Made by a program: the position numbers and the translations under genes
The notes under the pieces: model-generated
What the model was told of the DNA's origin: nothing
What the model saw: only the letters and a program-made list of their open reading frames with translations
Database searches by the model: none
In this document: in pieces, positions 5,462-37,200 of the stretch
Layout: each line of letters starts with the position of its first letter
Numbering within the stretch: position 1 is the first letter of the stretch
Assembly (NCBI GenBank): GCA_017506865.1
Contig: JAFCMP010000174.1
Coordinates: 55,700-119,699, forward strand
Source of the DNA: Tribonema minus
Taxonomy: Eukaryota > Sar > Xanthophyceae > Tribonematales > Tribonemataceae
Length of the DNA stretch: 64,000 nt
Direction: 5' to 3'

Positions 5462-8400
5462 TCAGCGGTGGCCGCTCATCCCGAGCGACCCGCCGCCGCC
5501 GCCGCCGGCCCCCTCAAAATTGGCGCCCCCCACGGCCGCGCGTGCCGGCCGCTGCGGAGCGCGTTTGTACGTATAACCTATGAAGTTCTGGTCCTTGTCG
5601 CGGCGGTGCGCGGCGCGGTTCGGCTGCTCCCACAGGCCGCTCTCCTCAAACTTCTCAAAGTTGGCGGTGAGCGCGGCGACGGCGGCGGCGAACCCCTCGT
5701 CACCACGGCTCAGCCGCCGCAGCCTCTCCAGCAGCTCAGCGCGTCGTGCAGACCCCTCGGGTATGTATGGCGACCTTAGCTCGCGAATACGTGACCAGTC
5801 CATGCCCGCCCAATCGGCAAACCATGCGTGCGCCATGATGTCGCCGAGGCCTCGCCTCCCGAGCCTCGCTTCGGCGTCCGTCACGAGGGCCAGGAGGAAG
5901 TCGATGCAGAGGGAGGAGACGGCGGCGGCGGCCTCGCGCGGGACCTCGAGGAATCGGCGCCAGTTGAGAATTTTCCGGCAGGTCGTCACGGGGTCCTCGG
6001 CGTAGAACGGCGTGTAGCCGACGAGGCACTCGTACATGATCACGCCCAGGCTCCACCAGTCGCACTCCTTGCCGTAGCCCTTCTGCAGCAGGACCTCGGG
6101 CGCGATGTAGTCGGGCGTACCTACCGTACTGTACACGAGGGCCCTGTCGCGGTGGGTCGGGGGAGGGGGCGTGTTCCCCTTGGCCCAGACCCCCTGCCCC
6201 TCCGCGGCAGCAGCGGCGGCGGCGGCGGGGGGGACGGGGGGTTGTGAACCGTTGGCACGGTGGGAGGGGGGGGGGAGGTGATGTCGGCCGAGTCAATGTC
6301 CATGCCGTGCTTGGTTACGTCGAAGACGTTGAGCATCGGGTCCTGCAGTTGAGGGGGGGGGGGGGGCGTTTGTGAGTTCATTAAGGTTCGAAATAGAGGT
6401 CGGTTCAGTTCGTTTCATAGCGCCACATGCATGTGAAGCTGCCGTCAGGCAAGTGTGCTACACTGTCCGGCAATGCAAGACCTGCATTCATGGTCAAGTC
6501 AAAGACAGTGTGTGACACTGCAATGAGTCTGCGGTTCGACAGACACGTCGTAAATTGTGCCGATAAGCATTTCAGGCTGGGATCAAGCAGCACGCATGGT
6601 GCTGGCGTAATGTGGGCAGCACCTCTTGGTTTAATAAAAACAGTGACTTTGGGGCATAAAGGACATGCCTGTACATTGCATGCGACACCACCTCCAACTT
6701 GAGATGGGGCTGAGCAATCACATCTGTCCAAAAACGACCTAGCTCGACCATTTCACAGAATTGTGCTCAGGCCGGCGCATGAATTCACGTGTGGTCATTC
6801 ATGAGCAACTCATGAGCACAAGTCGGTGCATCTTTATTAAATGGCAGTCCAGTCATAGCTGCCAGTGCTGCATGTACACAGACCACAATGGTTCAAAGCA
6901 CAAGCAAATGCCGGAACCGGCACCGACAACCTGTCATGGACACATGCTCATGTGTTCATGCGTACTGCACGTCTCAAGTAGGTTCAGGGCTACATTTAGG
7001 GTTCATTTGTGAACAAGTAGGTCATTTCAGGCGCTGCCTCACTTGTTCAATACGTGTGCAAGGCCAAGATTTGTCAGGATGTCGCGCCCGGTCCAGTCGA
7101 TTGAAATGTTCAGATACTTTGTCTGTGGTCTATTGACTTCAAAGGGTAGATGAGTGTGCACTGGATTCAGTGCCCAAGCCGAGCAGCCCAGGCTTGACGG
7201 AATGCTTGACACTAGCATATTCCATAACGATGCACAAATAGGCGTTTGAATGACAGCAGTTGTGCCAACCTTGACCCTAACCCTAACTACCACTTGACTG
7301 AGCAATGCCTCACTTGTTCAATGCACGTGCACAGTCAGGTTGACGTGCCTGCCCGGTACACTCTATCAGGATGTTTAGAGCTACATTTGGGGCTTATAAC
7401 TGCGAACAAGTAGGTCATTTCAGGTGCTGCCTCACTTGTTCAATGCGCGTGCACAGGCAAAGGTCCATCCTATTCACGTGCCCGGTCCAGTCGATCGAGG
7501 TGCACAGATACTTTGTATGTGGTCCATTGACTTCAACAGGTACATGAAGGGGCACTGCCCGACTAGGGTTGAAATAATGCTTGACACTGGCATGTCTTGT
7601 ACGGATGCGCTGACAGGCATTTGAATGACACTGATTACCGCGTGATCACTGCCAGTGACTCACTTGTTCAATGCGCGTGCACAGGCCCAGGTCTGTCAGC
7701 TTGACGTGCCCGGTCCAGTCAATCAGGATGTTGTCCGGCTTTAGGTCGCGGTGGATGTAACCCAGTTCGTGCACATGTGCTATGGCCATGGCGGTTTCGG
7801 CCATGTACATGCGCGTTGCCGCCTGTGATTCACATAGCGCATCGAGTCAAAACGCAGACGCGATGATGATGCGATGTTGGTGGGCATGTTACGAGCCTGC
7901 AACAAACACCTCTTTGGGGCAAGTGGCGAATGCATTGATGCTGAAGAAATGTTGGCAAGGCAAAGTCGAAAGTTGCCGTTGTACCTACGTACAGATGATC
8001 ACTGCTTTGCATGCTACACAAATACCATGCTGCAGAGTCGGCCTACCAACCAGCCCCATCATCCTGTAGCCTCTACGGGCTACAGCATGCTGCCATAGGG
8101 TCCCAAACAATCCACATTGCCCCTGTCCAGCGTGCGCTGCTGATAGGTATACACATTGTTGGTGCTTGACATCATAGCTTCGGTGTTCGCCATTGATTGC
8201 GACAGCAGTGCCATTGGGTGCCATGGCAACGCGCAGAAAGCGCAGCGGCTCAGAAGCAGCAGAGCTCGCCCTCAAATCCACATTGAAGCCTGACTTCAAC
8301 AACAACCTCATGACGCCTCACGCCAGCGCCACCAACCCCATAGTGTGTGGTGACATGGCACCTCAGAACAGGGAAGGCTGCCCTGCTGCGGGTGCACAAA

Positions 8401-34200: not shown

Positions 34201-37200
34201 GCTAGATCGTGGCTTGCTTCTGACTGACATGCATTTATCTACTTTTAAGGAGTCAGACAGGAGAGATCTGTGAGGGTGCCGACGCGCTATGTAGGCAGCA
34301 CTGTTCTGAGATGAGCTCAGAAGGCATGGGCCAGCGTCATTTGAGCCCCCCTCCTCGAATGATTACGCATTGAGCAAGATGCATTATGTATGGCAGCCAC
34401 AGCGTGGCCTGCTACTGACACACGCCCTAAACCTATCTCAGGCCTTCAGCGACATGACACCTTGTGGAGGGTAACCTCAAAAACTAGTAAATGTGGCATG
34501 CGCACTAGCAGCTCGAGCTCTGTGACAGGCAGGTCTTGGTGATGCAGAGCGCATGTCTTAAGCTATGTTGATCCAACAAAGGTAGGTGTATAAAGAGCAT
34601 ACAACAGCACGCAATGCAAGCGAATGCATGACACCACCAACCCACCGGCTTAGTCAAGAAGCTGCGCAAGCAAGACATACTAGCAGATGGCATGCCAGCC
34701 AGCGCATATGTCAAACACAGCCACGATGCTCCAAACAGAAGCCGCCGCCCCGCCGATGGTGGCGCAGGCATACGTAAAGGCACATACAGGTACTCGAAGC
34801 CAGGGCAGATTCATGGCAGTGATTAGCTGCGGACTGTTGAGCACTGCTACCGTGGACGGTTCCATGACTCCCAAGTGGCAAGTTCAAGGGCATTCATTGC
34901 TGCATGCATGCAAGGCCAGGAAGCGACACAACAATACCTGCTGAGATTAGCAACTTCAAACCTCAACTAACTGAAACCTGTACACGTGGACAGGGGTCTC
35001 TGAGGTATCTGGGGTATCTGCTGCATTACATACATACCCTGCTCCAGCTGCAACGCTCCGCGCGCTGTGTCTACCTCATCAACGACGCTGGCATCCTATT
35101 GGGCATGAGAGTGTGCCTACACAGCCCCACCAATGAGCTGTAACGTGACAGTTATGCACAGTGGGTTACACAAGATGTGTAGCTGCCAACATCAGCGTAC
35201 GACGATTGCATACATACTCTGCTCCAGCTGAGGACGCTCCGCGCGCTGTGTCTACTGCAAACTGAGGCGCTGGCATGCCATCCCATCAGGCAGTTACATG
35301 ACAGTTACGGACAATGAGCAGTTGCTGACAGTTCAATGAGCAGTTACGCAAGTTACTTAACTGCCACATGAGCGCACGACGGATAACACTGCTCACCTGG
35401 GCGTCAGGTACCTGGCTGTGGTAAGGCGCAGCAGCGAACAGTTACATGATGACAGTTACGGACAGTGACCGCGCAAATAGCGTAATTGCCACATATGCGT
35501 GCGAGGTTCACCTGGGGGTCAAGTATCTGGCCGTGGTAAGGCGCAGCAGCAGCTCGTCCCTGCCGGCAATGCGCCGTACGCTCTGCGCAGTGCCCTTGCC
35601 ATAGGTGGCGCCGCCCACCACTACGCCTCTGTCGGTGTCCTGCACCGCTGCCGCCAGCACCTGCGCGATGTCGTTGAGAAGTGATCGCTAGTGCGCATTG
35701 AGACACATCTAAATGAGGTGTTCACAAAGACACCTGGTTACCAGTTCATGGACATCCACGATCTGGGCTTTTTCGCGCCCTGAGCGAGAATTAAGAAAAA
35801 GTACCTGCGCAATCGCGTGCAGGGCATGATCACAGCGTGGGGACGCTTGATCTGTGTGCTGCAATGTGTATGCACGTCAGCATCGGCATGGATTTAGGGA
35901 TATAGGGTGGCACGGTTGTTGACCAGCAGATGCTATTATCTACACATGCCACAAGTGCGTGCGCGGCAGCATGCAGGTAAACAGTGAATGGTGAAACATG
36001 ACGTCTTTCAATTTCTTCCTTTTAAGACACCTGCCAGGTGCAGGGGCATCTCACACACAACATAGCGGTCTTGCTGGTACTTTCATGGCGGTCATGCTGA
36101 GCTGTTCAATGGCATCTGCGCCAAATAGGCAACCAAGCGCCAGCGATTTGACGGTGCCATACAATACCTACACCTCATATCACACCTTTCCCCAACCATC
36201 ATTACCTCTCCTCACACCATACCCACCTCAATTGCATACCAACATATGTACCTCAGTGACACACCGCACCTACCTATATCCCCCAATACCTACCTCATGT
36301 GCATACCACGCGTACCTCAGCCGCGCTGCGCGTGTCGCCGTTGACCAGCAGCACCAGCGGCAGGCGCGCCGGCAGCAGCGGTTCCGTCTGCGGCAGCGCA
36401 GCGCGGCGGCACGCATTTAACCAAATCGTCAGCATGCCTCAGCTGTCAGAATGCATCATCTGCAATAAACAAATTGTCAGCATGCAGCAGCTGCAGTAAA
36501 ACAAGACCGAATTGTCAGCATGCATCAGCGCAATAAGCAAGCAGCAGCGCTCAGCAACAAGTTGTACACATGCGCTATGAACAGATTGACGTCTCTAGGT
36601 GCGGAGCCGGCACGGCTATTGTGATCCTAGAACACCGCGAACTTGCATGTGCATATATACATCCTTTCATGCATACAGTGCACAGCGGGGCGCTGCAAAC
36701 GTGTGTGCAGGTGCGCGTGTGCGTACGGCAAGTGCGTGCACCGACTGGCGCACACGGCCAAAGGACACGCGCATGATTCACAATAGACCGCATCAATCAG
36801 CACATTGATGTTGAAGTAGGGACTGTACTGTCACAGTGGCAGGATGCGAAGACACCAGGCCTCATTCAACCAATGACTCTCAACGCTGCATATACCTCTA
36901 CCATGTTATACATTGCATGTATGTGTGCTTACCTCAGTGCTCAGCGTCACGGCATCCCCCTGGCCGTCCACAATGCGCACCACAGGGGACCCCCTCGGCA
37001 GCAGCAGCGCCGCAACGTCTACAGCCTGATCCAGGAGCCCCCCGGGATTGTCCCTTACGTCCACCACAAGCGCCTTAATAGGGGCCTGAGGCTGACTGAA
37101 CAGGCTGAGCACTGCTTGCGTCATCTCTTCCGCTGCAGATTCGCCAAAGTCATTGAGCTTGATGTAGCCAACTGTAGCTGGCGCTGGTGCTGCCTTAGTG

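Follow-up and report, generated by a model that had tools for sequence, protein, structure and literature searches.

Here we describe short direct copies of exon edges that lie within introns of four genes in a 64-kb stretch of the Tribonema minus genome (C174:55700-119699, hereafter the window), a kinase, NAP1, RPS15 and a CtpA-like gene. Each copy spans an exon-intron boundary and carries the end of the exon together with its splice site. We consider these edge copies, with good confidence, to be the products of ordinary, roughly neutral tandem duplication that happened to cross exon borders. They have the anatomy of tandem duplications and occur outside the window, the simple events among them fall at edges as often as random placement predicts, and the copies decay in a near-neutral manner.

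A preliminary description of the window had named nine exon edges with copies in the neighbouring intron. All nine were recovered as local direct repeats, with 16 copies in all (Table 1), and the GT or AG is retained in 15 of these, the exception being the RPS15 copy at 29312, which reads GA. The spacing had been put at about 65-400 bp; the lower end agrees with our measurements (66 bp), but the upper end has to be extended to 621 bp. Donor copies do follow and acceptor copies do precede the real site, as had been noted, although this order carries little information as evidence, because a copy in the adjoining intron has no other possible position. Under our counting rule, in which an edge copy must align over at least 8 exon and at least 6 intron bases, seven of the nine named edges qualify, with the kinase donor at 8643 (5 aligned intron bases) and the RPS15 acceptor at 30589 (4) lying just below the rule. 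The NAP1 donor at 23613, absent from the earlier list, satisfies it. With regard to gene identity, matches to the Pfam protein kinase, NAP, ribosomal S19 and S41 peptidase (with PDZ) families support the four assignments; the labels NDR, RPS15 and CtpA are those of the preliminary description, and the Pfam matches fit them without amounting to proof.

The analysed sequence, 264 kb in total, consisted of the window and 20 random 10-kb stretches from the 158-Mb, 554-contig assembly, the stretches being drawn from 74 contigs met in earlier searches rather than from all 554. For the gene models, an ab initio gene finder was first trained on this same sequence and then run on it; the exon borders are approximate, as the gene finder at times calls a decoy copy an exon. 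The models yielded 249 introns (median length 453 bp) flanked by exons no shorter than 30 bp, with a clear donor and acceptor consensus, and four of five checked predicted proteins from the random stretches contained a Pfam domain. Repeats were detected by an ungapped diagonal scan; a blastn self-comparison was set aside, having given no pairs at offsets below 80 bp. The analysis covered copies within an edge's own intron; 24 donors and 29 acceptors have copies beyond it as well.

At a score of at least 20, this sequence contains 544 local direct repeats, compared with 14 inverted repeats and none in block-shuffled sequence; the block-shuffled control gave one hit at score 22 and three at score 18. 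Chance is thus excluded as the source of the edge copies, and the preponderance of the direct over the inverted class is the local, direct orientation of tandem genomic duplication. An intronic copy was found for 36 of the 498 predicted edges, comprising 20 of 249 donors (8.0%) and 16 of 249 acceptors (6.4%), and relaxing the rule from six to four intron bases raised the count to 42. Only eight of the 36 edges are in the window; the other 28 come from the random stretches (200 kb), so that the pattern extends well beyond the four genes in which it was first noticed. The suggestion that the process is genome-wide therefore stands as to its wider occurrence and as to intron-lengthening tandem duplication, but not as to a targeting of splice junctions or the maintenance of decoys, as discussed below.

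The copies are tandem in their anatomy. Six pairs in the window, five of them at edges, align head to tail, each with a score that none of 100 shuffles reached. One such pair is in RPS15 intron 2, where unit 30183-30421 abuts unit 30422-30645, the latter reaching 57 bp into exon 3, and the kinase units 7008-7400 and 7401-7732 are adjacent with a head-to-tail alignment. RPS15 28681-28992 aligns with 29001-29130, where the automatic contiguity test gave no signal; the alignment suggests a single tandem unit whose second copy later underwent a deletion. In the whole analysed sequence there are 75 tandem clusters in 61 of the 249 introns, of which 35 cross an edge and 40 are interior, and the intervening sequence is absent or homologous in 21 of the 35 and 30 of the 40, respectively, again as in tandem genomic duplication. 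The intronic tandem at 11467..11594 is the same process acting away from any edge.

The preliminary description had proposed comparing edges with random intron segments, and run in this form the comparison does not place edges far above interior points. Interior intron points have a copy within their own intron in 4.6% of cases when a single direction, downstream or upstream, is counted and in 7.8% (1383 of 17816) when both are, against the 8.0% and 6.4% of donors and acceptors. The frequency with which clusters cross an edge depends on their complexity, being 11 of 37 for clusters of a single pair, 8 of 13 for two pairs and 16 of 25 for larger ones. As a null, we simulated random tolerated duplication with neutral decay, in one or several rounds, with unit lengths matched because single-pair units are shorter (median 68 bp, compared with 128 bp for all clusters). 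Single-pair clusters are at an edge as often as in the simulation (11/37 observed, 0.312 simulated, P = 0.64), also when only units of at least 60 bp are considered (10/24 observed, 0.372 simulated, P = 0.40). We conclude that simple duplication events show no targeting to edges. For arrays of more than two pairs, the observed 16/25 compares with simulated fractions of 0.488, 0.475 and 0.504 after two, three and four rounds (P = 0.09, 0.07 and 0.12), and a modest edge preference of arrays is possible.

Several results weigh against the explanation by ordinary tandem duplication. The total of 35 edge clusters among 75 exceeds both the one-round analytical expectation of 24.7 ± 3.1 and the one-round simulated fraction of 0.287-0.305; among all clusters with units of at least 60 bp, 33 of 59 are at an edge, compared with a one-round fraction of 0.388 (P = 0.006), and the share in clusters of exactly two pairs is high as well. 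Mutating 12% of exon bases, which equalises divergence, cuts the edge count merely from 36 to 30-33. The aligned intron parts are short, with a median of 18.5 against 37 in the first simulation (p = 2e-6), a shortfall that depends on how divergence and indels are set (under three of the six settings p is 0.10-0.22, under the others it is below 0.01), and none of the simulation settings jointly reproduced the length and identity of interior pairs. Contiguity was not demonstrated in 14 of the 35 edge clusters. Finally, the gene models are ab initio and self-trained on the analysed sequence, with decoys called exons at several loci, and the decoys at acceptors are stronger than neutral decay predicts (3.96 compared with 2.77).

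The excess of edge-crossing clusters, residing chiefly in those with two or more pairs, and the shortness of the aligned intron parts relative to some simulations would fit a junction-directed process, for example template switching during repair or an RNA-templated step that favours the copying of exon ends. Such a process is nevertheless decidedly improbable, given that single-pair clusters occur at the random expectation, that the exon parts of edge copies, 8 to 89 bp long, show no favoured length, that the aligned units can extend several hundred bases into the intron, and that interior tandems are about equally common. The idea of a special mechanism acting at splice sites thus finds no support in the single-pair clusters or in the interior tandems. 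The high edge share of multi-pair clusters also leaves room for a different account, rather unlikely in our estimation, in which exon edges anchor repeated tandem growth. Arrays containing an edge would then outgrow others, because the exon part held by selection stays a good template for misalignment, and the resulting rows of near-identical decoys would influence splicing.

Under roughly neutral tandem duplication, the copies should decay while the real exon is preserved, and this is close to what was found. The divergence between real site and copy is 0.106 for donors and 0.131 for acceptors on the exon side, and 0.263 and 0.215, respectively, on the intron side, giving intron-to-exon ratios of 2.5-fold and 1.6-fold, which lie around the two-fold that constraint on the real exon alone would produce. 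The splice dinucleotide is intact in 51 of 63 copies, with GT in 22 of 29 and AG in 29 of 34, compared with the 23.4 and 25.9 expected from the exon-side divergence; retention is near the neutral expectation. This retention and the acceptor strength noted above would also suit decoys held by selection as alternative or regulatory splice sites, an explanation which we regard as very improbable. The per-base identity of the donor GT (0.879) is about that of the exon side (0.894) and that of the acceptor AG (0.926) is only slightly above its own exon side (0.869), donor decoy strength matches neutral decay (4.02 and 3.85), and offsets divisible by three are not preferred (classes 0/1/2: 10/10/9 for donors and 12/6/16 for acceptors). 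The earlier proposal of maintained decoy sites is accordingly unsupported, with donors at the neutral expectation, though acceptors are somewhat above it.

Introner elements are intron sequences that arise at many loci, and the edge copies likewise affect many loci. A dispersed element of this type is scarcely credible as their source, however, since in both genes used for genome searches the copies proved to be local and specific to the gene, and each edge copy resembles an exon of its own gene. A genome search with the kinase region found just four other short matching places, two of which are a paralogue on C7, and with the RPS15 region, among the best candidates scored and with common words skipped, matches were limited to a paralogue on C10 and one 75-bp repeat; in these searches we found no similar copies dispersed among unrelated genes, which contradicts a dispersed origin for these two of the four genes. 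The 75-bp repeat, in RPS15 intron 1 (window 28557-28630), would also favour a dispersed source. It recurs in at least 37 other places at 94-100% identity and in both orientations, among the best 40 of 1446 candidates, and has no Rfam match.

On C7, the kinase paralogue has a pair of its own (212424-212479 with 212573-212628, 96%, offset 149), which lies at a predicted donor edge. The exon concerned is homologous to the one at 8643 in the window, whose copy has an offset of 112. The RPS15 paralogue on C10 has an exon 2 of equal length (103 bp) with matching borders, and its 5190 bp are free of local direct repeats. Near-duplicate stretches with 95-99% identity over 2.6-3.8 kb were observed among C90, C179, C359 and C467. 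The 10-kb stretches of C90 and C179 share 90.5% identity and differ by two indels of at least 12 bp; they carry 6 and 5 predicted introns, respectively, and contain no local direct repeats; polymorphic duplications were sought in this comparison and none were found. At the 3' end of the kinase gene, window 2956-5811 holds a 1102-bp tandem unit in about 2.6 copies, 98-99% identical and including a predicted 456-bp exon, which may be either a recent duplication or an assembly artefact.

The sequence of events that we propose is as follows. Short stretches would duplicate head to tail, recurrently and throughout introns, at offsets of mostly 60-400 bp, by a molecular route that may be slippage or microhomology-mediated repair. 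About one third of the tolerated events would cross an exon-intron border, because the unit length is similar to the lengths of exons and introns, and each of these would place a shortened exon end, together with an additional splice site, within the intron. The gene would survive if the outermost donor and acceptor remain in use, in which case the intron simply grows. Afterwards the copies, which are probably unspliced, would decay roughly neutrally, with selection preserving the real exon.

Border-crossing tandem duplication is a mechanism already known, and in this respect the finding looks ordinary. A study of a potato RdRp gene reports a tandem duplication across an intron-exon border that duplicates the 3' splice signals and the exon start, an 83-bp tandem inside an intron of the same gene, and RNA reads that reveal a new intron using the duplicated copy (PMC4974935). 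A border-crossing tandem is common to both cases; here, at the level of DNA, many loci are affected and the simplest reading is a longer intron. Tandem genomic duplication is described as a recognised mechanism of intron gain (PMC3443670). Extra splice sites are supplied in both, but here the duplicated segment already holds an intron edge and the outcome appears to be longer introns. With respect to tandem alternative exons, which are whole-exon copies, the copies counted here hold exon ends of 8-89 bp, no separate whole-exon search being made, and some of them were called exons by the gene finder. A literature search over titles and the openings of abstracts, from which subscription journals were largely out of reach, found no description of exon-edge copies on a genome-wide scale.

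Table 1. Exon-edge copies and other intronic tandems in the window (window coordinates).
Feature	Position	Strand	Details
Kinase donor, exon 7664-7822, three copies	7008..7732	-	alignment; offsets 228, 350, 621
Kinase donor, exon 8643-8771 (8638-8690), one copy 8526-8578	8526..8690	-	94% identical, offset 112
Kinase acceptor, exon 9856-10093, two upstream copies, both with AG	10048..10269	-	direct repeats
Kinase acceptor, alignments	10048-10128 with 10189-10269; 10075-10151 with 10141-10217	-	direct-repeat scan
Kinase acceptor, tandem	10075-10214		Tandem Repeats Finder (TRF): period 66, 2.1 copies
NAP1 donor, exon 22121-22264, one copy	22038..22141	-	direct repeat, offset 68
NAP1 donor 23613, exon 23614-23678, weak copy	23452..23659	-	70% identity, GT lost
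NAP1 donor, exon 25678-25773, four copies	25249..25717	-	offsets 100, 198, 306, 412; array period ~106
RPS15 acceptor, exon 29110-29212, one copy	28681..29130	+	28928-28992 with 29066-29130, 92%
RPS15 donor 29212, exon 29110-29212, two copies	29184..29592	+	offsets 128 (GA, site lost), 334 (GT)
RPS15 acceptor, exon 30589-30830, one copy	30183..30645	+	4 intron bases in ungapped edge match
CtpA-like donor 35511, exon 35512-35660, one copy	35391..35550	-	89% identical, offset 115
Intronic tandem, away from edges	11467..11594		64 bp, two identical copies
Intronic tandem, away from edges	34095..34419		offset ~195

Other repeats were observed in the same 264 kb. Interstitial (TTAGGG)n is present as 32 exact runs of at least 11 bp, 28 in introns, four outside genes and none in exons, with 125 overlapping 11-mers compared with 0.3 in shuffles; examples are at window 7267-7287, window 33471-33503 and L030 8679-9293. 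Contigs C2 and C3 also begin with TTAGGG arrays, which were among the first matches listed in a whole-genome pattern search. Telomere repeats were considered as filler at duplication junctions and rejected, there being no enrichment at repeat ends (33% and 33%). Introns that contain a telomere repeat have tandem clusters more often (16 of 24) than the remaining introns do (45 of 225; unadjusted odds ratio 8, p = 5e-6), and the logit coefficient is 1.4 with length in the model; the association is weak when length and locus are held (16/24 compared with 13.4 ± 2.0, or, by repeat, 28/36 compared with 22.1 ± 2.5). A period-6 motif, TTGAAG/CTTCAA, is over-represented, with 45 segments (31 in introns, 11 outside genes and three in exons) against 2-10 for ten control hexamers. 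Palindromic-type repeats (GTACGACATGT) are located at window 49024-49300 and 53689-53839, and a 38-bp unit at 49041-49205 reappears reverse-complemented at 53767-53839.

The 28 edges found per 200 kb of random stretches correspond to very roughly 22,000 in the 158 Mb, a crude figure given the 74-contig sample and the presence of some near-duplicate contigs. Gene finders may call such copies exons, as happened here at several loci. In this genome, a large number of real splice sites are naturally paired with a decoy whose flanks are similar, and these pairs, together with RNA reads, would show directly which member of such a pair of donors or acceptors is chosen by the spliceosome.

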